From: an uncultured Phycisphaerales bacterium
Lineage (GTDB): Bacteria > Planctomycetota > Phycisphaerae > Phycisphaerales > SM1A02
Direction: 5' to 3'
Assembly: GCA_949373145.1 (NCBI GenBank)
Contig: CASICI010000006.1
Coordinates: forward strand, 1 to 64,000
DNA: 64,000 nt
Shown: one piece after another, positions 11,736-33,686 of the stretch
Layout: each line of letters opens with the position of its first letter
How positions within the stretch are numbered: position 1 is the stretch's first letter
The notes under the pieces: generated by a model
The model's database searches: none
What the model was told of the DNA's origin: nothing
The model's input: only the letters and a program-made list of their open reading frames with translations
Made by a program: the position numbers and the translations under genes

Positions 11736-13311
11736 TCAGAGTGAGTCCGGCACGACCGCCGAAAGCACGTTCAGCCAGATCCACGGCTCGCCGCAAGGCT
11801 GCCGTCTTGTTCAGAGTCTCCTCGAACTCGAGAGTGGGGTCCGAGTCGAGCACGATCCCGGCGCCAGCTTGAAGATCGACGACCCACTCTCCATCGACCT
11901 GCTCCGTGGGAATGACGATCGTTCTCAGTGCCAGTGCGATGTCGGCTCCCCCACCAAGACCGATCGCACCAATGCCTCCGGCGTAGGGCCCACGGCGGGG
12001 TGGGTTCCACCTCATCGATGATCTCCATGGCACGGATCTTAGGAGCACCACTCACGGTGCCCACCGGAAGGGTCGCGCGCAGAGCATCCCATTGATCGAG
12101 ATCGGAGCGCAAGCGTCCTGTGACCGTCGAGGAGATGTGCATGACGTGGCTGTATCGCTCGATCTCCATGCAACGATCGATCGAAATCGAGGCCGGTTCA
12201 CACGCACGCCCCGAGATCATTCCGGGCCAGATCGACCAGCATCACATGTTCGGAACGTTCCTTCTCGTCGGAGAGAAGTTCCTGTTCCAACGCGAGATCT
12301 TCGTCGTCGGTGCGTCCACGGCGTCTCGTGCCCAGCGAGCGGGCGGCTGGTGACGACCTCGTCGCGCACGCGACAGAGAATCTCAGGACTTGCCGCGACC
12401 AGAATGCACCCCTGGCATTGAAGGTAGATCTGGTAGGGACTTGGATTGACGACACGCAGTGCTCGGTAGATGTCGAAGGGATCCGCGGTCGTGGTGCGCC
12501 GAAGTCGTTGACTGACGACGGTCTGAAAGACATCACCAGCAGCGATGTATTCCTTCACGTCCTCGACCACGGACTTGAATTTCTCGGGCGTGAAGTTCGA
12601 AGTGCAGGGTTTCGAGTCATGACTCGAGAGATCCCCTTCGATGAATCCTGGATCGAGTCGGACCAGGGAATCGGTCAGCAGGCTCGACAGCTCCTCGAGT
12701 CGTCTTGAAGCATCATCGAAAGCGGGCTTGATACCGGTCCAGCGACTCACGTCGCTTCTGACGAGAACATGAATCCGCTTCGAGACGTGATCGAAGATCA
12801 CGAGCTCCTCGTAGAGCCCGACATGCATGTCGGGAAGACTTCGATCATCGTCCGGTGCATCCTCGAAGGCGAGCTTGCCGGCTTCGAGCCAGCGAACGGC
12901 GTCGTAGCCGATGTGTCCGACCCAGCCGCCGCAGAAACTGTCGGGAAGGGTGTCCATTGGTGTTCCGAGTTCGACGTTCGAAGCAAGCAAGCGAGGCACC
13001 GAAAGCGGGTCGGGTTCCCGAGAGATTCGCTCGGTGCCGGCTTCGTTGTCTCGAACGATGACCTGATGACCGTGCGCGATCACCTCGAGACGCGGACGAG
13101 CGCCCAACACGGAAGTCCGACCGACCTGAGCCCCCTGCCCCCCCTGCTCCACGGATTCGAAGAGGAAACTCGGGGCGGTGCGATCATCCGCTTCGACCAG
13201 AGCTCGATAGGCGAGCACCGGGGTGAGGCGGTCGCTCATCAACGTCCGGTGAAGAACGACAGGACGTCCGTGCCGCGCTTCTTCCTCGAATGTCGGTTGA
13301 TCGATTGCCAT
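11736..13311 (-). CDS. trpE: Anthranilate synthase component I (frame broken by indels)
   Basis: Converts chorismate plus ammonia (from the TrpG glutaminase) to anthranilate. The ATG at 13311 ([15 protein letters not shown]) starts a typical N-terminal region, with [10 protein letters not shown] and [14 protein letters not shown]. The chorismate-binding core follows: [27 protein letters not shown], then in other frames a [20 protein letters not shown] stretch, [38 protein letters not shown] and a [12 protein letters not shown] stretch. Breaks lie near 12040, 12215 and 12330. The natural stop may be at 11736 (a VVPDSL end, needing one more indel) or the open frame runs on to 11605; the extra arginine-rich tail makes the shorter end more likely. 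pabB is the alternative. Confidence 0.85.
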
Positions 13312-13416
13312 GTGGAAAGGATACGGAACTCCGTCCCCTCCTGCCGGGTTAAGAACTACACTTCCATCATGCAGACCCAGCCACACTCCGGGAATCCACT
13401 CGATCAAGGTGTTTCG

Positions 13417-14121
13417 ATGACCCAACACATCGCATCCCTCAGGGGATTGCAGAAGACCTATTTCAAACCGGATGGATCGGTGCTCGTCGATGCACTCAGG
13501 GGAGTCGATCTCGACATCCCCAAGGGTCAGTACCTGGCGATCATGGGCGCCTCCGGATCCGGAAAGTCGACCTTGATGAATCTGCTGGGATGCCTGGACA
13601 CGCCCACCAGCGGCTCCTATGAACTCGAAGGCATCGATATCGCGACGCTTCCCGACGAGGAACTCAGCGCGATCAGGGGTCGAAAGATCGGCTTCGTCTT
13701 TCAGGCCTTCAATCTGATCAGCGAACTGGACATCGTGGAAAACGTCTGCGTGCCTCTCCTCTACCAGGGAATTCCCCGACCGATCCGCAGGAAGCGGGCG
13801 CTCGAGGCTCTGGACCAGGTCGGCCTTGGAGATCGGATCACCCATCGCCCACGCGAGTTGTCGGGAGGCCAGCAACAGAGAGTCGCGGTCGCACGTGCTC
13901 TGGTGACGAAGCCAGCCATCGTGCTGGCGGACGAACCGACGGGAAATCTCGACTCGACGACGGAACGTTCCCTGCTCAACCTCTTCGACGAACTGCATGA
14001 TGACGGCATGACGATGATCATCGTGACCCACGAGCCGACGCTTGCCGAACGCTGCCAGCGGATCATCAGACTCAAGGATGGATCGATCGACGTCGATGAA
14101 GCCGGCGGCAAAGCCACATGA
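13417..14121 (+). CDS. ABC transporter ATP-binding protein, LolD/MacB-like
   Basis: A 234-residue ATPase with Walker A GASGSGKST (44-52), Q-loop FVFQAFNL, signature LSGGQQQR, Walker B IVLADEPTGNLD and switch histidine in IIVTHE. The LNL/NLDS sequence type is that of the MacB/LolD/FtsE group, which power extraction of lipoproteins or export from the inner membrane. The ATG at 13417 has AAGG 8-9 bases upstream; an in-frame ATG at 13369 would add 16 residues. No permease gene is adjacent: the stop overlaps the ruvC start (ATGA), so the partner permease must be elsewhere. It is divergent from trpE. Confidence 0.9.
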   Translation: MTQHIASLRGLQKTYFKPDGSVLVDALRGVDLDIPKGQYLAIMGASGSGKSTLMNLLGCLDTPTSGSYELEGIDIATLPDEELSAIRGRKIGFVFQAFNLISELDIVENVCVPLLYQGIPRPIRRKRALEALDQVGLGDRITHRPRELSGGQQQRVAVARALVTKPAIVLADEPTGNLDSTTERSLLNLFDELHDDGMTMIIVTHEPTLAERCQRIIRLKDGSIDVDEAGGKAT

Positions 14122-14618
14122 AACTGATGGGGATCGATCCCGGGCTCAACATCACGGGGTACGCCTGCGTCGAATGCGACCAAGGCTCCGAACCCCCTCG
14201 ACTGCTGGAAGCAGGCGTGATCAGAATGCCCAAGACCACCGATCTCCCCGTGCGCCTGGGGCATCTCTTCGAGGAACTGGAGTCACTGCTGAGCGAGTTC
14301 TCTCCGGGCAGGCTGGTCGTCGAATCGATCTTCAGCCACAAACGATTTCAGGGGTCGGGGCTTCTCATGGGGCACGCCCGCGGCGTGATCCTGCTTGCCG
14401 CACAACGACGTGGGATTCCAACCGGTGAACTCGCCCCCGCCGAGGTCAAGAAGGCTTTGACGGGAAATGGACGCGCGACGAAAAGTCAGATCCAGCAGGC
14501 GGTGATGTCGCAGTGCGGGCTGGCGGAAATCCCCTCGCCACCCGATGTGGCGGATGCGATTGCAATCGCCCTTGGCGCGGCACACCGAGGACACCTCGAT
14601 GACCACGGTCTCGAGTGA
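14118..14618 (+). CDS. ruvC: Crossover junction endodeoxyribonuclease RuvC
   Basis: Holliday-junction resolvase of the RuvABC system. The four acidic catalytic residues line up with the family: D7 in GIDPGL, E69 in VVES, D143 and D146 in DVADAIAIAL. It has 166 residues, about the usual length. FSHKRFQGSGLLMGHARGV and APAEVKKALTGNGRATKSQ are family-typical. The ATG overlaps the stop of the ABC ATPase gene by four bases, an unusual partner; ruvA and ruvB are not in the window. It converges on the YdjY-like gene with only five bases between them. Confidence 0.95.
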   Translation: MKLMGIDPGLNITGYACVECDQGSEPPRLLEAGVIRMPKTTDLPVRLGHLFEELESLLSEFSPGRLVVESIFSHKRFQGSGLLMGHARGVILLAAQRRGIPTGELAPAEVKKALTGNGRATKSQIQQAVMSQCGLAEIPSPPDVADAIAIALGAAHRGHLDDHGLE

Positions 14619-14623
14619 ACCGC

Positions 14624-15394
14624 TCAGGTGTCCCAGGGTGTCAGAACAAGGCTGACCGGAGTTCCCGGAGCCGGCACCTTTTCAGAGCGAATCTCCCAGA
14701 CTGCAGCATCGACCGAGACCTGATCCGAGATCACGCCCGGCAAGCCAAGAACTTCATCGCCGAACGTTGCGAAGCCGATGATCGATCCGCTGTAGTCGGC
14801 GACGTACCGTCCCTCCCGGTCGAAGCGCGAGCCGCAGAACATCCACGGCGTCGGTGGAAAGACGGTTCCATCGGATGACCCCATGACCATCTCCTCGACA
14901 CTGGATTCCACGAGGCACCCCTCGGTGTCCGTGAAACGAACGCGAATTCGAACCGGAGCTCCGGTGGGAGGAATTCGTTCTATCTCGTAGCGATCACCAC
15001 GCATCGTCTCCAGCCACCGACCGGGAACGCCCGACTCGAGGCCGATCATGAGAAGCGCCGAATGGATGAGACTCGGCTGACACTCGACCACGAAGATCGA
15101 TTCGTGCTCTCGAGTGCCGCGAAGACAGGCGATCTGTTCGATCCAGCCGGAATCAATGGCGATGAAGGCAGGGACCAGGACCTCACGTGAGTCCAGACGG
15201 CATTCGATTCCTCCCGCAAGATGAATGATTCCCGAGGGACTTGGTGCCTTGATCGATTCGTCGACCATGACGCCGGCCCCAGAGGGCGCGGTGGGCGTTT
15301 CCGACTTGGAGGAGACACAGCCACTCGAGATGCCGGCAAGAACGAGCATCGCGGCTCTTCTCAACCCTCCCGGACTCGCTGACCTGCTGCTCAT
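14624..15394 (-). CDS. YdjY-domain lipoprotein
   Basis: I start it at the ATG at 15394 (MSSRSASPGGLRRAAMLVLAG), which gives an N-region with arginines, a hydrophobic core and an SSGC lipobox-like cysteine near residue 25. The body matches the planctomycete YdjY domain: AFIAIDSGWIEQIACLRGTR with HES after it, then CQPSLIHSALLMIGLESGVP. Function of the domain is not established; lipid anchoring suggests the periplasmic face. Further upstream codons in frame belong to the terminator-bearing leader and are unlikely to be coding. The structured RNA at 15446-15547 lies just ahead on the same strand and could control it. Confidence 0.75.
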   Translation of the reverse strand: MSSRSASPGGLRRAAMLVLAGISSGCVSSKSETPTAPSGAGVMVDESIKAPSPSGIIHLAGGIECRLDSREVLVPAFIAIDSGWIEQIACLRGTREHESIFVVECQPSLIHSALLMIGLESGVPGRWLETMRGDRYEIERIPPTGAPVRIRVRFTDTEGCLVESSVEEMVMGSSDGTVFPPTPWMFCGSRFDREGRYVADYSGSIIGFATFGDEVLGLPGVISDQVSVDAAVWEIRSEKVPAPGTPVSLVLTPWDT

Positions 15395-15445
15395 GACGGC
15401 GAGCGTACCATCGGAGAGGTGCTCGAGAAGTCGGGCTTCAGAATG

Positions 15446-15483
15446 AAAAAAAGGCCCGGTCGAGGCGAACCTCAGACCGAGCC
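15446..15483 (-). terminator. Rho-independent terminator with TTCG loop
   Basis: On the minus strand a nine-pair outer stem (15475-15483 with 15453-15461) continues, past one unpaired base, into GAGG-TTCG-CCTC and is followed by seven T. The one position that mismatches on the plus strand (C15456/A15480) becomes a G-U wobble in the minus-strand RNA, so the direction is clear. The nearest minus-strand gene upstream is more than 1 kb away, so it is not a simple gene-end terminator. Confidence 0.8.
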
Positions 15484-15547
15484 CTTCCGGGGGCAAGTGA
15501 AGTGGCCTCAACCTGATAGAGGGAGACCTGAGTGACCGAAGTCACGG
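15446..15547 (-). ncRNA. Candidate small RNA or attenuating leader ahead of the YdjY gene
   Basis: On the minus strand a possible start near 15547 is followed by a GTGAC-TTCG-GTCAC hairpin (15532-15545, a cUUCGg tetraloop), a weaker CCTC/GAGG hairpin, and a strong terminator ending in T7 at 15446-15452. The total would be about 100 nt. The YdjY-like gene begins 52 bases beyond, so this is either a free sRNA or a leader that terminates unless read through. I do not recognise a known riboswitch class. The region 15395-15746 holds no other gene that I can see. Confidence 0.45.
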
Positions 15548-15553
15548 TAAACA

Positions 15554-15581
15554 ATACTATCTCAATCAATCGACGAAGCAA
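15554..15581 (-). promoter_or_regulatory. Possible sigma-70 promoter for the leader/sRNA
   Basis: Minus-strand TTGCTT (15576-15581), 16-base spacer, TAGTAT (15554-15559), placing the start near 15547. Each box is only a partial match to consensus, so this is a weak call supported mainly by its position ahead of the hairpins. Confidence 0.3.
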
Positions 15582-15746
15582 GACCGAGGTCTGAGATACT
15601 TTTTCGAGTTTCTCCGGTCTTTTGTGTCCTATAGTCCATCTAAACGTCTCAGCGACCCCCTTTCACTCGAAAAACGGTGCCAAGTGCCCACTACGCTCTC
15701 CAGAACCACGAGATTTTGCATCCACCCCTCCGAGGAGGTGGACACG

Positions 15747-16523
15747 ATGCTGAGCAAGCACAACACGTTCGCGTCAGCACCGAGCCCTCGTGGCCTCGCG
15801 GCCTGGTACGAAACGGTCGTCGAAGTTCAGGGCGCTCCTGATCCACGGTCCGGTTACATCATCGGAATCGACAAGATCGACAAGGCCGTGCGTCTCACCG
15901 TGTTGGAACCATTGCGCGCAGCGCTGAGAGGCGAGGACAGCAGAGACCTGTCCTCGCTCGTTCTGGATCTCGCATCCCGGACGCAGGAAGCGTTGCAGAG
16001 ACCTATTTCCGGATTCAAGTTGAGAGTCACCCCAAGGCATGAACTTGGATGGGTGAACGAACACAACGGCTGCATGCCGAAACCAGGGGACACCATGTCG
16101 ACAGAGGAATTGAATTTGATGATCCGCATCCAGTTCGAGTTTGCAGCATCCCACCGCCTCCACTGCGCCGAGGAATCCGATGAGTGGAACCGGGATGCCT
16201 TTGGAAAATGCAACAATCCAGCGGGCCATGGGCACAACTATCGAGTCGAGGTGTGCGTGACACCGGATCTGGATGAGAACCGTCGCTCGAGAATGACCTT
16301 CGAAGCCGTCGAGGCCATCGTGAAACGCGAGGTCATCGATCGTTTCGATCACCGCAACCTGAACGAACAGTGCACGGAATTCGAACAGCTCAACCCATCG
16401 GTCGAGAACATCACCGCGGTCTCAAGGGACCTGCTGATGAAACCTCTGGCCGAATCGGGAGGACGCCTGCGGGAGATCACGATCTGGGAGACGGAGAAGA
16501 CCAGCTGCACCTGCAGGGTCTGA
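15747..16523 (+). CDS. 6-pyruvoyl-tetrahydropterin synthase / QueD-like protein with degenerate N-terminal repeat
   Basis: The ATG at 15747 has GAGGAGG about 8 bases upstream, which decides the start against the longer open frame. The C-terminal half (from about residue 124) is a complete synthase domain: zinc ligands H136 (ASHRLHC), H161 and H163 (GHGHNYRVEV), catalytic-type C155 (FGKC), and the DHRNLNEQ and PSVENIT motifs. The first ~115 residues look like a second copy of the fold (WYETVVEVQG ... GYIIGIDKID) that lacks the zinc histidines. The active domain would make a pterin or the queuosine precursor; the substrate is not fixed by these motifs. 258 residues, about twice a single QueD. 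Confidence 0.85.
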   Translation: MLSKHNTFASAPSPRGLAAWYETVVEVQGAPDPRSGYIIGIDKIDKAVRLTVLEPLRAALRGEDSRDLSSLVLDLASRTQEALQRPISGFKLRVTPRHELGWVNEHNGCMPKPGDTMSTEELNLMIRIQFEFAASHRLHCAEESDEWNRDAFGKCNNPAGHGHNYRVEVCVTPDLDENRRSRMTFEAVEAIVKREVIDRFDHRNLNEQCTEFEQLNPSVENITAVSRDLLMKPLAESGGRLREITIWETEKTSCTCRV

Positions 16524-16538
16524 TCGTCCATCGAAATC

Positions 16539-17012
16539 TCAAGTGAGTTCGTCCTCGGCCATCAAGCGGAAGCCCTTCCGTCTGAGGATCTGGCCTGCAA
16601 AGGTGTTGTCATCCACGGCGAGCGCCAGCAACTGCATCGGTCCCGAAGGATGGGTCGGCAGAATCGGATACGCGAATCGAATGTTGAGTTCGGCACCCAG
16701 AAGGTAGAGACACGCGTTGGTCAACGTGTTCACCTCGTCGAGTTCAAGTACCAGAAGCTCGACCTCGGAAAAACTGAAACCATGCTGGCGCAGCAGGAAA
16801 CGAGCGGCGTCAGCGTTGTCGAAGATCATCCTCACCACGGCATGGTCGGATGAATCAAGAACGCTGATCGCGGACATCGTGACGTCATGGGCTTCGTCGA
16901 AGAGTTGCACGAGTTCGAGCAGCTTGCCGACCCGATTGTCGAGGAAGACACCGAACTGGCGCACCGATGGCGGCGCGTATCCTTGTTCCGTTCCGAGCGG
17001 CATTTGTGACAT
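16539..17012 (-). CDS. Tandem ACT-domain protein
   Basis: A 157-residue soluble protein. After a short N-terminal tail, VRQFGVFLDNRVGKLLELVQLF begins an ACT-like beta-alpha-beta unit with the G-x-L/L turn. A second unit follows in the C-terminal half (PSGPMQLLALAVDDNTFAGQ). ACT domains usually bind amino acids and regulate metabolic enzymes, but no catalytic domain is attached, so it may be a stand-alone sensor. The ATG at 17012 (MSQMPLGTEQG) is preferred over a TTG at 17060. It ends 15 bases from the convergent pterin-synthase-like gene. Confidence 0.7.
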   Translation of the reverse strand: MSQMPLGTEQGYAPPSVRQFGVFLDNRVGKLLELVQLFDEAHDVTMSAISVLDSSDHAVVRMIFDNADAARFLLRQHGFSFSEVELLVLELDEVNTLTNACLYLLGAELNIRFAYPILPTHPSGPMQLLALAVDDNTFAGQILRRKGFRLMAEDELT

Positions 17013-17114
17013 TGAGCATTCATCCAGATCAAGCGTGCAGCGATACCCGTGAAAGGCCAACCCGAAGTATAGCTCGTCACACGTTGCACACGATCACGGA
17101 GGTCTGAAAGAGAC

Positions 17115-18026
17115 TCAAGTCGTCGAAAGAAAATCAGGTGTGGGACATTCCGGAAGCAGACCTGATTCGGCGGCGCACACCAGGAGCGCTCGAACGGCTT
17201 CACGTCCGCGCTCACCGTAGTCGAGGGTCCAACGATTGACGTAGAGATCGACGAATGCACCGGTTATGTCGGCATCCAGTCCCCTCGCCCATTCCTGAGC
17301 TCGACGAATGGACTCGTCCCGATGCTCCATCGAATACTTCAGGGATGCCTCGAGAAGTCCGACGATCTCCTGGCTCGCGCCTGCACCGAATCGCTCATCG
17401 AGATCTCGTCGAACGACGTTGGCTCCCAGAGGCAATGGAAGGCTCTTTTCGCGTTCCCACCAGGCGCCGAGATCCTGAACTTGAACGAGTCCCTCCTCTT
17501 CGAAGGTGAGCTGGCTCTCGTGAATCACGACACCTGCATCGAATCGTCCGGAGGTCACCGCTTCAGGGATCTCGTCGAAGGGCATCGAAGTCCAGTTCAC
17601 GGCATCCCGCCCCAGCATGAGGCTGGAGACCAGATAGGCCGTGGTTCGATCGCCGGGGACGGCGATCGATGGACGCGACGTCCGCAGGGTCTCCAGTTCG
17701 ATGGGCTCGCGTGCGACGAGGCGAGGTCCGTAGCCGTCACCGACACTCGCTCCGCATCCTGTGATCACGTAGCGATCGGCGATGTGCGGATAGCACGCGC
17801 ATGAAATGCCCGTGATTTCAAGCGCGGACTCGTCATCCGAGTCACAAGCATGGTTGTTCAGAGTTTCAATGTCCTCGACGACCTGCTCGAACCTGAAACG
17901 ATCGCTGGACAGTCGAGCAGGCTCGCCATCGCGTTCGAAGAGCGGCCACCACATGAAGGCGTCATCGGGATCCGGGCTGTGGCCCAGACGAATGGTCGCA
18001 CGCGCGTCTGTCTTGTGTGTGTTCAT
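17115..18026 (-). CDS. mqnD: MqnA/MqnD-family menaquinone biosynthesis protein
   Basis: A 303-residue periplasmic-binding-fold enzyme. The N terminus IRLGHSPDPDDAFMWWPLF is the hallmark of the MqnA/MqnD family; ITGISCACYPHIADRY, SIAVPGDRTTAYLVSSLM and DAGVVIHESQLTFEEEGL follow the family order, including the dehydratase/lyase-type cleft motifs. MqnD cleaves cyclic dehypoxanthine futalosine to 1,4-dihydroxy-6-naphthoate; MqnA makes the first intermediate. Assignment to D rather than A is inferred from the SPDPDD start and the length. mqnC at 23338 is another enzyme of the same pathway, so menaquinone is probably made by the futalosine route. Confidence 0.75.
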   Translation of the reverse strand: MNTHKTDARATIRLGHSPDPDDAFMWWPLFERDGEPARLSSDRFRFEQVVEDIETLNNHACDSDDESALEITGISCACYPHIADRYVITGCGASVGDGYGPRLVAREPIELETLRTSRPSIAVPGDRTTAYLVSSLMLGRDAVNWTSMPFDEIPEAVTSGRFDAGVVIHESQLTFEEEGLVQVQDLGAWWEREKSLPLPLGANVVRRDLDERFGAGASQEIVGLLEASLKYSMEHRDESIRRAQEWARGLDADITGAFVDLYVNRWTLDYGERGREAVRALLVCAAESGLLPECPTPDFLSTT

Positions 18027-18061
18027 GACTCGACAATCGTAGCCGAGCCGACCGGTTCGAG

Positions 18062-18865
18062 TCAGCAGTTCCAGGCAGAAAGAAGCACGGTGAGGTCCCC
18101 ACCACCGACGGAACCAGATCCATCGAGGTCACCTGTGCCTGAATTGCCCCAGTTTCCCAGCAGTTGAGCCAGGTCCGAGCCACATACCTGGCCATCGCCA
18201 TCGATGTCAGCGGTCACATAGATGCCTGCGTAGATGACCGCACCGAGATCGGCATCGATCGTGATGTCGATCGAATTGACTCCGGATGGCAATGATTCGG
18301 GAAGCACCCCGACCGAGATCGTCTGCAGACCGATGTTCGACATCAACAGCAACCCGTCCGCTTGAGTGATGTCACCGTCGATCGAGATGAAATCATCCGC
18401 GATGGTCGTGGAGACTCCCGAACCGACGAGGCCTCCGGTGTAACTGAAATCCAGTTCGAGTCCGTAGCGAACGGAGTTGAGTGCCCAGGTGTCGTTGACG
18501 ATGGGTACGTCGGCGGGAGGCGAAAGGAGATTCAGCCTCAGACTGTCGACATTGACGATGACGGTCTCGAGACATCCGAAGATGGAGCAGAAGAAATCCA
18601 GCTCGAGCTGACCACCCTGCATCAGCAGGGAATGAGCATTGACATCCAACATGTCGAAAGACGATGTCGGCTGCACAGAGAAGGCGCTTTCGATCAAGGT
18701 CGTGGTCGTGGAATCATTTGCCGTCGAGGAACCGAAGATCGGCACATCCAAGGTCATTTGGACGTCGACTGGAACCAGAGCGCCTGGCACTGCGTCGAGA
18801 GTGACATCAGCCTGCGCGATTGACGAAACGAGTACGAGGGAACCAGCGATCATTCTCAGGGACAT
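18062..18865 (-). CDS. Secreted protein with C-terminal dockerin-like EF-hand pair
   Basis: The ATG at 18865 has GGAG a few bases upstream. Residues 1-19 form a signal peptide ending in IAQA. The body (about 20-215) is beta-rich, Ser/Thr/Val-rich and of unknown function. The last ~48 residues hold two calcium-loop repeats, DIDGDGQVCGSDLAQLLGNW and DLDGSGSVGGGDLTVLLSAW, each with D at positions 1, 3/5 and 12 of the loop. Such tails are very common on secreted Phycisphaerae proteins and act as calcium-binding attachment modules. The protein ends with AWNC. A cohesin partner is not visible here. Confidence 0.8.
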   Translation of the reverse strand: MSLRMIAGSLVLVSSIAQADVTLDAVPGALVPVDVQMTLDVPIFGSSTANDSTTTTLIESAFSVQPTSSFDMLDVNAHSLLMQGGQLELDFFCSIFGCLETVIVNVDSLRLNLLSPPADVPIVNDTWALNSVRYGLELDFSYTGGLVGSGVSTTIADDFISIDGDITQADGLLLMSNIGLQTISVGVLPESLPSGVNSIDITIDADLGAVIYAGIYVTADIDGDGQVCGSDLAQLLGNWGNSGTGDLDGSGSVGGGDLTVLLSAWNC

Positions 18866-18956
18866 CTCATTCTCCACAGTGAGGTGACTAAAAGACCTGT
18901 TTCAAAGTAGCCGATGGGAATTCAGATGCAAGAACTCTTCGAAAGGTACCGGACTC

Positions 18957-19634
18957 CTAGCGAGTGAGGGCACCCGGATCGAGAACGTAGGGGTTTGAGA
19001 GCCGTTCTCGGCCGATGGTGGTGGCAGGCCCATGCCCCGGGTGGACCTCGGTCGAATCGGGAAGTGTCATCAACCGTTCCAGACTGCGCACCATCGCCGC
19101 TGGATCCGAAGTCGGAAAATCGACGCGACCGACCGATCCTGAGAACAAGGTGTCACCCGCAAGAAGAATTCCATCGGTCGAGTTGTACAGCCCGACCGAT
19201 CCCGGACTGTGTCCCGGAAGATGGAGAACCTCCCAGTGACTTCCGAGCAGATCGAGACGCTCGCCGTCTTCGTACTGCTTGTCGGGTGCGGGAGCCACAC
19301 AAGGCCAGGGGGTCATGCCCGAGAGATTCGCCATCGGATCCCTGTTCCACTCGGCTTCGATCGGATGCACCCAGATCGGCATGGGACCGAAGCGTTCGAT
19401 GAGGCGATCGATGCCTCCGATGTGGTCGTAGTGACAATGGGTCAGCAGAAGGCCGCGTGGCTCGAGGGCACGCTGAGCGACTTGATCGAGCAGCGGCTCG
19501 GGCTCCATGCCGCAATCGATCAGATAGCACCCATGAGGGTCAGGTCCTGTTGGCACGCAAAGAATGGAGCAATTGGTCTCCACCGGCCCGAGGGGCAGGG
19601 AGATCAATTCCGGAGTGCAGGCGGTATTCGTCAT
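18957..19634 (-). CDS. Metallo-beta-lactamase-fold hydrolase, glyoxalase II-like
   Basis: A 225-residue cytosolic protein with the dinuclear metal motifs THCHYDHIGG, the PGHSPGS histidine, AGDTLFSGSVGR and the last histidine in HPGHGPAT. The arrangement is that of the small glyoxalase-II/YcbL group, which hydrolyses thioesters such as hydroxyacyl-glutathione or a related thiol conjugate. The start at 19634 (MTNTACTPELI) fits the family's NCS/NCY start (VETNCSILCV); an ATG at 19664 would add ten residues. It is divergent from the HEAT lipoprotein gene, with 77 bases between. Confidence 0.88.
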   Translation of the reverse strand: MTNTACTPELISLPLGPVETNCSILCVPTGPDPHGCYLIDCGMEPEPLLDQVAQRALEPRGLLLTHCHYDHIGGIDRLIERFGPMPIWVHPIEAEWNRDPMANLSGMTPWPCVAPAPDKQYEDGERLDLLGSHWEVLHLPGHSPGSVGLYNSTDGILLAGDTLFSGSVGRVDFPTSDPAAMVRSLERLMTLPDSTEVHPGHGPATTIGRERLSNPYVLDPGALTR

Positions 19635-33569: not shown

Positions 33570-33686
33570 GCCGGAGGACGGCCAGGAGTGACACGAGCTC
33601 GGACGACGACGCTTATGGCTGCTGCCGTCAGGCCCTGACCAGGTTCACGAGCCGCCCGCCCTCGCGGTCCCGACCGCCCTCCGAGC
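33570..33686 (-). ncRNA. ffs: Signal recognition particle RNA (small bacterial type)
   Basis: On the minus strand the apical domain IV at 33617-33640 reads GGUCAGG, then GCC-UGAC-GGC, then AGCAGCC: the invariant 5' and 3' sides of the Ffh-binding loop with a UGAC (URRC-type) tetraloop in place of GGAA. The arms close with a ten-pair stem, 33674-33683 with 33572-33581, including one G-U. The gene lies 56 bases before dnaX on the same strand, a common arrangement. A possible promoter is TTGATC (33748-33753), 16 bases, TATCTC (33726-33731). The ends are estimates. Confidence 0.88.

Follow-up and report, generated by a model that had tools for sequence, protein, structure and literature searches.

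A candidate trans-acting small RNA of the Phycisphaerales that joins a near-constant C-rich motif to an exchangeable terminator hairpin

Our window, the whole 64,000-nucleotide stretch of contig CASICI010000006.1 from an uncultured Phycisphaerales bacterium, holds a gap between two divergent genes, one for a YdjY-domain lipoprotein (ydjY) and one for a protein of the 6-pyruvoyl-tetrahydropterin-synthase (PTPS) fold, with ruvC beyond ydjY (Table 1). A sequence-only reading had described on the minus strand of this gap a cUUCGg hairpin, a weaker hairpin and a very strong terminator ending 52 bases before the gene, and both sequence and fold place all three there, the 52 bases running from the end of the T-run (15446) to the ydjY ATG at 15394. 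It had also remarked that no source gene lies upstream on that strand, and indeed none adjoins, because the PTPS-fold neighbour is on the plus strand. The direction of the element, which that reading had argued from a single G-U pair, is borne out by the energy of the terminator hairpin (-22.5 kcal/mol on the minus strand versus -18.6 kcal/mol for the complement). Local folding on the minus strand likewise stands out from shuffled sequence (z -2.60; 2/200 shuffles equally good), and does so less on the plus strand (z -1.54; 14/200). On the other side of the gap, positions 15722-15741 of the plus strand hold an imperfect inverted repeat, CCACCCCTCC-GA-GGAGGTGG; the ribosome-binding site of the PTPS-fold gene probably lies within this repeat and might be masked by it.

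Table 1. Positions of the genes and RNA features at the locus
Feature	Position	Strand	Basis or remark
ruvC, beyond ydjY	14118..14618	+	PF02075, E 2.9e-36
YdjY-domain lipoprotein gene, downstream neighbour, outside the RNA gene	14624..15394	-	NF040466, E 4.9e-35
Predicted small RNA, ~102 nt	15446..15547	-	R1/R2 conserved core; fold -44.0 kcal/mol; 5' end placed by promoter-like element, +/- a few bases
Terminator U-tract, seven T	15446..15452	-	sequence
Terminator hairpin: 13 pairs, one bulged U, UUCG loop, one G-U pair	15453..15483	-	fold and covariation
C-rich motif TTGCCCCCGGAAG, abutting the terminator stem on its 5' side	15484..15496	-	most constant part is CCCCGGAA
Weaker second hairpin	~15504..15528	-	predicted fold, seen in source genome
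5' hairpin GTGAC-TTCG-GTCAC (cUUCGg), GTGACTTCGGTCAC	15532..15545	-	fold; in G003 the outer G-C pair is C-G
Promoter-like element TTGCTT-N16-TAGTAT	15554..15581	-	sigma-70 consensus match 7/12 (by eye); weak
PTPS-fold gene, divergent upstream neighbour	15747..16523	+	PF01242, E 2.4e-30

The motif that abuts the terminator has the consensus UUGCCCCCGGAAG across copies. In the fold of the predicted transcript its TTGCCCCC is unpaired at a probability of at least 0.98, each base of ACUUCACUUGCCCCC is unpaired at 0.96 or above, and the GGAAG of the motif zips onto the U-tract, so that only the first eight motif bases are open. We infer the start of the RNA in the source genus from a weak promoter-like element, which there sits further up than in many other copies and gives an RNA of ~102 nt that has an additional hairpin at its 5' end; by eye, similar elements stand upstream of the copies in four other genomes (G002, G003, G004, G010), and a promoter scan of positions 12000-19000 reported no promoter-like site. 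Across the promoter-like element runs an inverted repeat with the halves TATCTCA (15558-15564) and TGAGATA (15592-15598), which might serve as the operator through which the RNA is regulated; similar halves are discernible by eye in G004.

The element extends well beyond this locus. When 61 genomes were searched at the DNA level, the final ~55 bases of the RNA found matches in many members of its own family and in some of sister families; only in G003 did the match cover most of the 346-base query. Covariance modelling, the check that the sequence-only reading had suggested, was built on two alignments, and both show an element conserved across the order whose terminator stem covaries. Alignment A2, the basis of model R1, comprises 38 copies picked by a 17-letter pattern in which as many as 4 substitutions were tolerated; the motif reads CCCCCGGAAG in 36 of them, CCCCCGAAAG in one and CCCCCGGAAA in one, and the stem is paired in 94.9% of cells, with two-sided change at 7 of its 13 pairs and a covariation of 0.362 compared with 0.148 +/- 0.015 after shuffling. 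Alignment A3, the basis of model R2, comprises 48 diverse copies that hold CCCCGGAAG or were found by a 13-mer, out of 61 selected copies (one false match, L136+, was left out together with 12 others, partly near-duplicates). Its lower stem carries two-sided changes at 9/9 tested pairs with 91.0% of cells paired, and covaries at 0.611 against 0.203 +/- 0.023 in shuffled alignments and no more than 0.217 in any slid register.

Scored against genomes, R1 recovers the source copy, one of its own training sequences, at E 1.7e-18 and matches 172/251 Phycisphaerales genomes at E<=0.01, including 86/92 of the same family; R2 at E<=1e-4 matches 165/251 (87/92 in the family), leaving 86/251 genomes of the order without a match at that threshold, family f4 among them (0/6 of its listed genomes match). 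Across a phylum sample of 392 genomes, 31 of which belong to the order, 28 (R1) and 25 (R2) match at E<=0.001. Outside the order the matches are few and weak: 5/361 for R1 (best 1.2e-4, partial) and 2/361 for R2 (one at 3.3e-4; the other, covering part of the model, at 5.5e-5). The core pattern occurs in at least 119 stretches of public genome contigs, two of them in the cultured strain ZRK34 (CP050848), and among the matches listed 110 of the 119 carry Planctomycetota-type names (Phycisphaerales, Phycisphaeraceae, Planctomycetia and others). The pattern TTGCCCCCGGAAGGGC-N20..45-TTTTT had no match in viral contigs, so carriage by viruses is not supported. We regard this conservation as the decisive evidence that the element is real.

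What the copies share is chiefly the motif, and its constancy is best read from the two sets that left it freer to vary, namely A2 and 58 loci derived from the models with no motif filter; in the latter a few loci duplicate one another, and the motif is itself part of the models. With that understood, CCCCGGAA stands in 56/58 of these loci, CCCCGGAAG in 49/58 and the full TTGCCCCCGGAAG in 30/58. The two loci that lack CCCCGGAA are L203 and L263, the second of which, at 26 bits, is probably spurious; the last G of the motif is T in seven of the model-derived loci, all in genomes G064, G073 and G133, and the TTG varies as well. Copies for the promoter and neighbour counts were chosen by a regular expression requiring CCGGAAG, and candidates for A3 by one requiring CCCCGGAAG, so that the constancy of these letters in the 129-copy set and in A3 follows in part from the selection itself.

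The hairpin is another matter. In other families and in the paralogues of large genomes it has been rewritten with the motif kept, and some copies have an entirely different stem, such as GGCGGCGAG..CTCGCCGCC in family f2, or elsewhere GGTCCCGTC..GACGGGGCC, CGTCCGGTG..CACCGGACG, GCCCGTGTCG..CGGCGCGGG and others. The most constant part of the element thus lies outside the hairpin, which is free to change. Copy number varies too: in its own family the element is mostly single-copy with conserved neighbours, and the models find as many as 14 matches in a single genome, with 10-14 in some. Seven loci from G064, G073 and G133 (L193, L194, L199, L201, L204, L205, L206) are near-identical, carrying CCCCCGGAAT, ending in GGAAT and sharing one hairpin, with several per genome; they look recently multiplied, and because the regular expression left them out they are absent from the neighbour counts. 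In two further loci, L195 and L200 (G073, G133), a single terminator follows three head-to-tail repeats of the motif (CCCCGGAA, CCCCCGGAA, CCCCCGGAAG), an arrangement in which the number of sites may matter. Eight genomes of genus g18 (G021, G103, G117, G163, G169, G175, G240, G257) have two model matches each, in several of them close together, in tandem or facing.

Upstream of the motif the copies have further features in common. Among 129 non-redundant copies, -10-like hexamers concentrate 21-23 bases 5' of the motif's first C, and 81/129 copies have a promoter-like pair, compared with 18.4 +/- 3.8 (maximum 26) after base shuffling. This spacing puts the start some 10 bases ahead of the C-run, and the length of the RNA at ~60 nt, in those copies; in other copies the best promoter candidate sits further up. 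The stretch before the motif is poor in G, with 2-12% at each of positions -10 to -2 across the same 129 copies. The copies thus show a near-constant C-rich motif that follows a G-poor stretch and directly precedes a covarying terminator with its U-tract, and some genomes hold several of them.

Gene neighbourhoods were tallied for 167 copies, 147 picked by regular expression together with further sets of 15 and 5, with genes called by our own codon model, which makes their starts approximate. Downstream and on the same strand, ydjY follows in 87/167 copies, 67 of them with the PTPS gene upstream and 20 without; in 6/167, all with the PTPS gene upstream, ydjY lies downstream facing the RNA, and in 74/167, some of them cut by the end of the locus, there is no ydjY match. 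Eight copies without a ydjY match (L022, L044, L062, L082, L112, L116, L144, L160) have ruvC downstream on the opposite strand within ~1 kb, and at L022 two RNA copies face each other. Where a downstream gene was called, it is on the same strand in 99/126 copies and on the opposite strand in 27/126. Other neighbours, named by eye, include TerC, CheX-like, MlaF-like and DUF1501 genes. Family f6 keeps the tie to ydjY despite a different upstream gene. In family f2, where 12 copies were examined, a UbiA-like gene stands upstream in 7/12 and a MarR/GbsR-like gene downstream in 6/12 (names by eye), and one or the other address recurs at L250, L253-L257 and L259-L261. The association with ydjY is real, and the RNA is nevertheless independent of any one neighbouring gene.

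Of the two possibilities that the sequence-only reading had left side by side, an attenuator or riboswitch-like leader and an independent small RNA, the second agrees better with what we find: conservation across the order, changing neighbourhoods, the promoter-like pairs and membership in no Rfam family. The element also has what is expected of a trans-acting intergenic small RNA, namely a terminator, promoter-like elements (in 81/129 copies, weak in the window) and no tie to a single gene, transcription itself being predicted. We therefore lean, with modest confidence, toward the view that the segment encodes a trans-acting small regulatory RNA conserved across the Phycisphaerales. Such an RNA would be transcribed from its own sigma-70-type promoter, at ~60 nt in many copies and ~100 nt in the source genus; its replaceable hairpin would end and protect it; and, in the least certain step, the open part of the motif, UUGCCCCC, would serve as a seed that pairs with G-rich sites in a restricted number of RNAs, with GGAA possibly freed from the U-tract upon contact with a target. 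That the motif pairs with target RNAs is an inference by analogy with the cyanobacterial Yfr1, on whose model the pairing might proceed without Hfq. A search for Hfq (PF17209) matched 0/61 genomes and 5/14 control genomes; an Hfq-dependent trans-acting RNA was accordingly rejected, and pairing would be Hfq-independent.

Searches for targets, which covered part of the source genome, gave no signal. Across 330 of its gene starts there is no enrichment of motif-complementary 6-mers, and a slight k-mer excess in other genomes was set aside because it is confounded by RNA copies upstream of a divergent gene. Duplex energies at 342 start regions of the same genome, covering ~463 kb of 2.1 Mb, are no better than those of shuffled seeds, and the 16S and 23S rRNA of G013 and the SRP RNA of the window have no unusual complementarity to the motif relative to shuffled seeds. 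A 14-mer near-complement search returned 28 matches versus 1 for the reversed control; among the 27 that were inspected, five are further RNA copies with new stems and the rest are mostly coding sequence as judged by eye, and the match at G040:C46 overlaps an R1 match.

The main alternative to an antisense seed is a protein partner: an autonomous small RNA whose motif is the docking site of an RNA-binding protein, for instance CsrA. In that form, a mini-hairpin GCCC[CCGGAA]GGGC would compete with the terminator base and offer its GGA to CsrA, which the RNA would thereby titrate. We consider this possible, if rather doubtful. The motif has been kept though no complementary target was found, two copies carry it three times, CsrA is present in 60/61 genomes, mostly with a second, divergent copy, and the GGA sits in a potential hexaloop (-5.6 kcal/mol alone). 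Against CsrA itself, however, four copies (L221, L276, L277, L291) keep CCCCCGGAAG yet cannot form the mini-hairpin, the predicted fold places GGAAG on the U-tract, the predicted RNA of the window has a single GGA where known CsrA sponges have several, genomes of family f4 have CsrA although the RNA was not found there, and the C-run is left unexplained. Most of the 61 genomes have two kinds of CsrA, a typical one of ~85 bits and a divergent one of ~50 bits, and a few have one only; examples lie at G000:C6:79910-80065 and G000:C2:45751-45915.

Two readings that keep the element local fare worse. A cis-acting leader or attenuator would start upstream and stop at the terminator, and a binder of the motif would control read-through into the downstream gene, here ydjY. 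The short distance from terminator to ydjY and the same-strand position of ydjY in more than half of the tallied copies, including the 20 with no PTPS gene upstream, speak for such a leader, as do the general excess of same-strand downstream genes and the copies that precede same-strand TerC (26-31 bases away), CheX-like, DUF1501 and MarR/GbsR-like genes (names by eye). Yet ydjY faces the RNA in six copies, ruvC takes its place on the opposite strand in the eight noted above, unrelated genes stand beside the RNA elsewhere, the two copies at L022 point at each other, over a fifth of the called downstream genes (27/126) are on the opposite strand, and inspection by eye found no alternative structure, kept in all copies, that would compete with the terminator and undo it, the one candidate, the GCCC[CCGGAA]GGGC mini-hairpin, failing to form in the four copies named above. 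A ydjY leader as the general role, which the sequence-only reading had entertained, does not survive these counts, and we judge cis control unlikely, although read-through may still affect ydjY in the source genome. Still less probable, and in our view very improbable, is that the element is a mere stereotyped terminator or a spreading DNA repeat whose RNA has no function. It does always end in a terminator, and some genomes hold 10-14 model matches, the near-identical CCCCCGGAAT set of G064, G073 and G133 among them; but in its own family it is mostly a single copy amid conserved neighbours, the divergent gene upstream leaves no transcript to terminate, promoter-like elements stand at a preferred upstream distance, and the most constant part lies outside the hairpin, which is itself free to change.

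Returning to the trans-acting small RNA that we favour, its wider form can be offered only tentatively: the motif may define the first global riboregulon of the Planctomycetota, in which each genome has 1 to 14 short RNAs with exchangeable terminator hairpins and a common docking motif, all acting free of Hfq. The partner of the motif, either an RNA that pairs with it or an RNA-binding protein peculiar to the order, would itself be under such constraint that CCCCGGAA has stayed almost unaltered throughout the Phycisphaerales. Small RNA annotation is sparse in this region of the bacterial tree: a survey of 2022 tabulated 8 distinct Rfam small RNAs in the PVC group versus 345 in Proteobacteria (PMC9029176). 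An RNA matched in 87/92 sampled genomes of its family, in a group where Hfq was found in 0/61, offers a concrete entry to RNA regulation in these organisms. The interchangeable hairpins point to the short motif as the working part, and with so short a working part the capture of targets or of a partner should be straightforward.

Comparison with known RNAs found no class to which the element belongs, and the sequence-only reading had likewise matched it to none that it knew. At gathering threshold the sole Rfam match in the whole window is the bacterial small SRP RNA (33577-33675, minus strand), and no family scores above gathering for the segment or for 17 loci, most of them with diverged copies. 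At relaxed thresholds the RNA or its G002 copy drew SorY (RF02651), Betaproteobacteria_toxic_sRNA (RF02278) and sX14 (RF02233), which we rejected as chance-level matches at 10.5-22 bits versus gathering scores of 50-111 (E 1.9-8.2). A search of the literature on planctomycete small and noncoding RNA, YdjY and transcriptomes, and for the letters CCCCCGGAAG, found no description of this RNA. The nearest candidate by taxonomy is the Rhodopirellula-1 motif, a candidate RNA of 2010 listed for Proteobacteria and Planctomycetes (PMC2864571). Our RNA occurs outside its order only as weak matches (R2 2/361; R1 5/361), a difference drawn from the published listing of that motif. We take the RNA described here for a probable new family of trans-acting small RNA with a highly conserved motif.

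CsrA-titrating RNAs of the CsrB/RsmX type carry several GGA motifs in hairpin loops. The element resembles them in its GGA within a possible loop and in the commonness of CsrA in these genomes; it differs in its conserved C-run, in a mini-hairpin missing from some copies and in the number of GGA, which is one in the RNA of the window and three in a row only in L195 and L200. In LhrC of Listeria, UCCC motifs are functional and each RNA holds several. LhrC is, moreover, described as a set of multicopy small RNA paralogues with C-rich motifs (PMC4132741), a likeness to the several paralogues here that does not extend to the motif, which is a different one, and for which we claim no relation in sequence.

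The best analogue in build is Yfr1, reported as an RNA of 54-69 nt from all cyanobacterial lineages with an unpaired, ultraconserved 11-mer, ACUCCUCACAC, between two stem-loops (PMC2190773). Membership in Yfr1 was rejected, as ACUCCUCACAC is absent and the motif is UUGCCCCCGGAAG, in another phylum. The analogy has further limits, in that part of our motif can pair with the U-tract, some genomes hold many copies, and the predicted RNA of the window is longer (~102 nt compared with the 54-69 nt given for Yfr1), whereas many other copies would start ~10 bases before the C-run, a start that leaves no room for a 5' hairpin. The window copy does have a 5' hairpin, an open stretch and a terminator, and there is a likeness at the level of families: Yfr10 is described as a second RNA family that shares only the Yfr1 motif (PMC6778093), much as the diverged copies in the Phycisphaerales share little beyond theirs.
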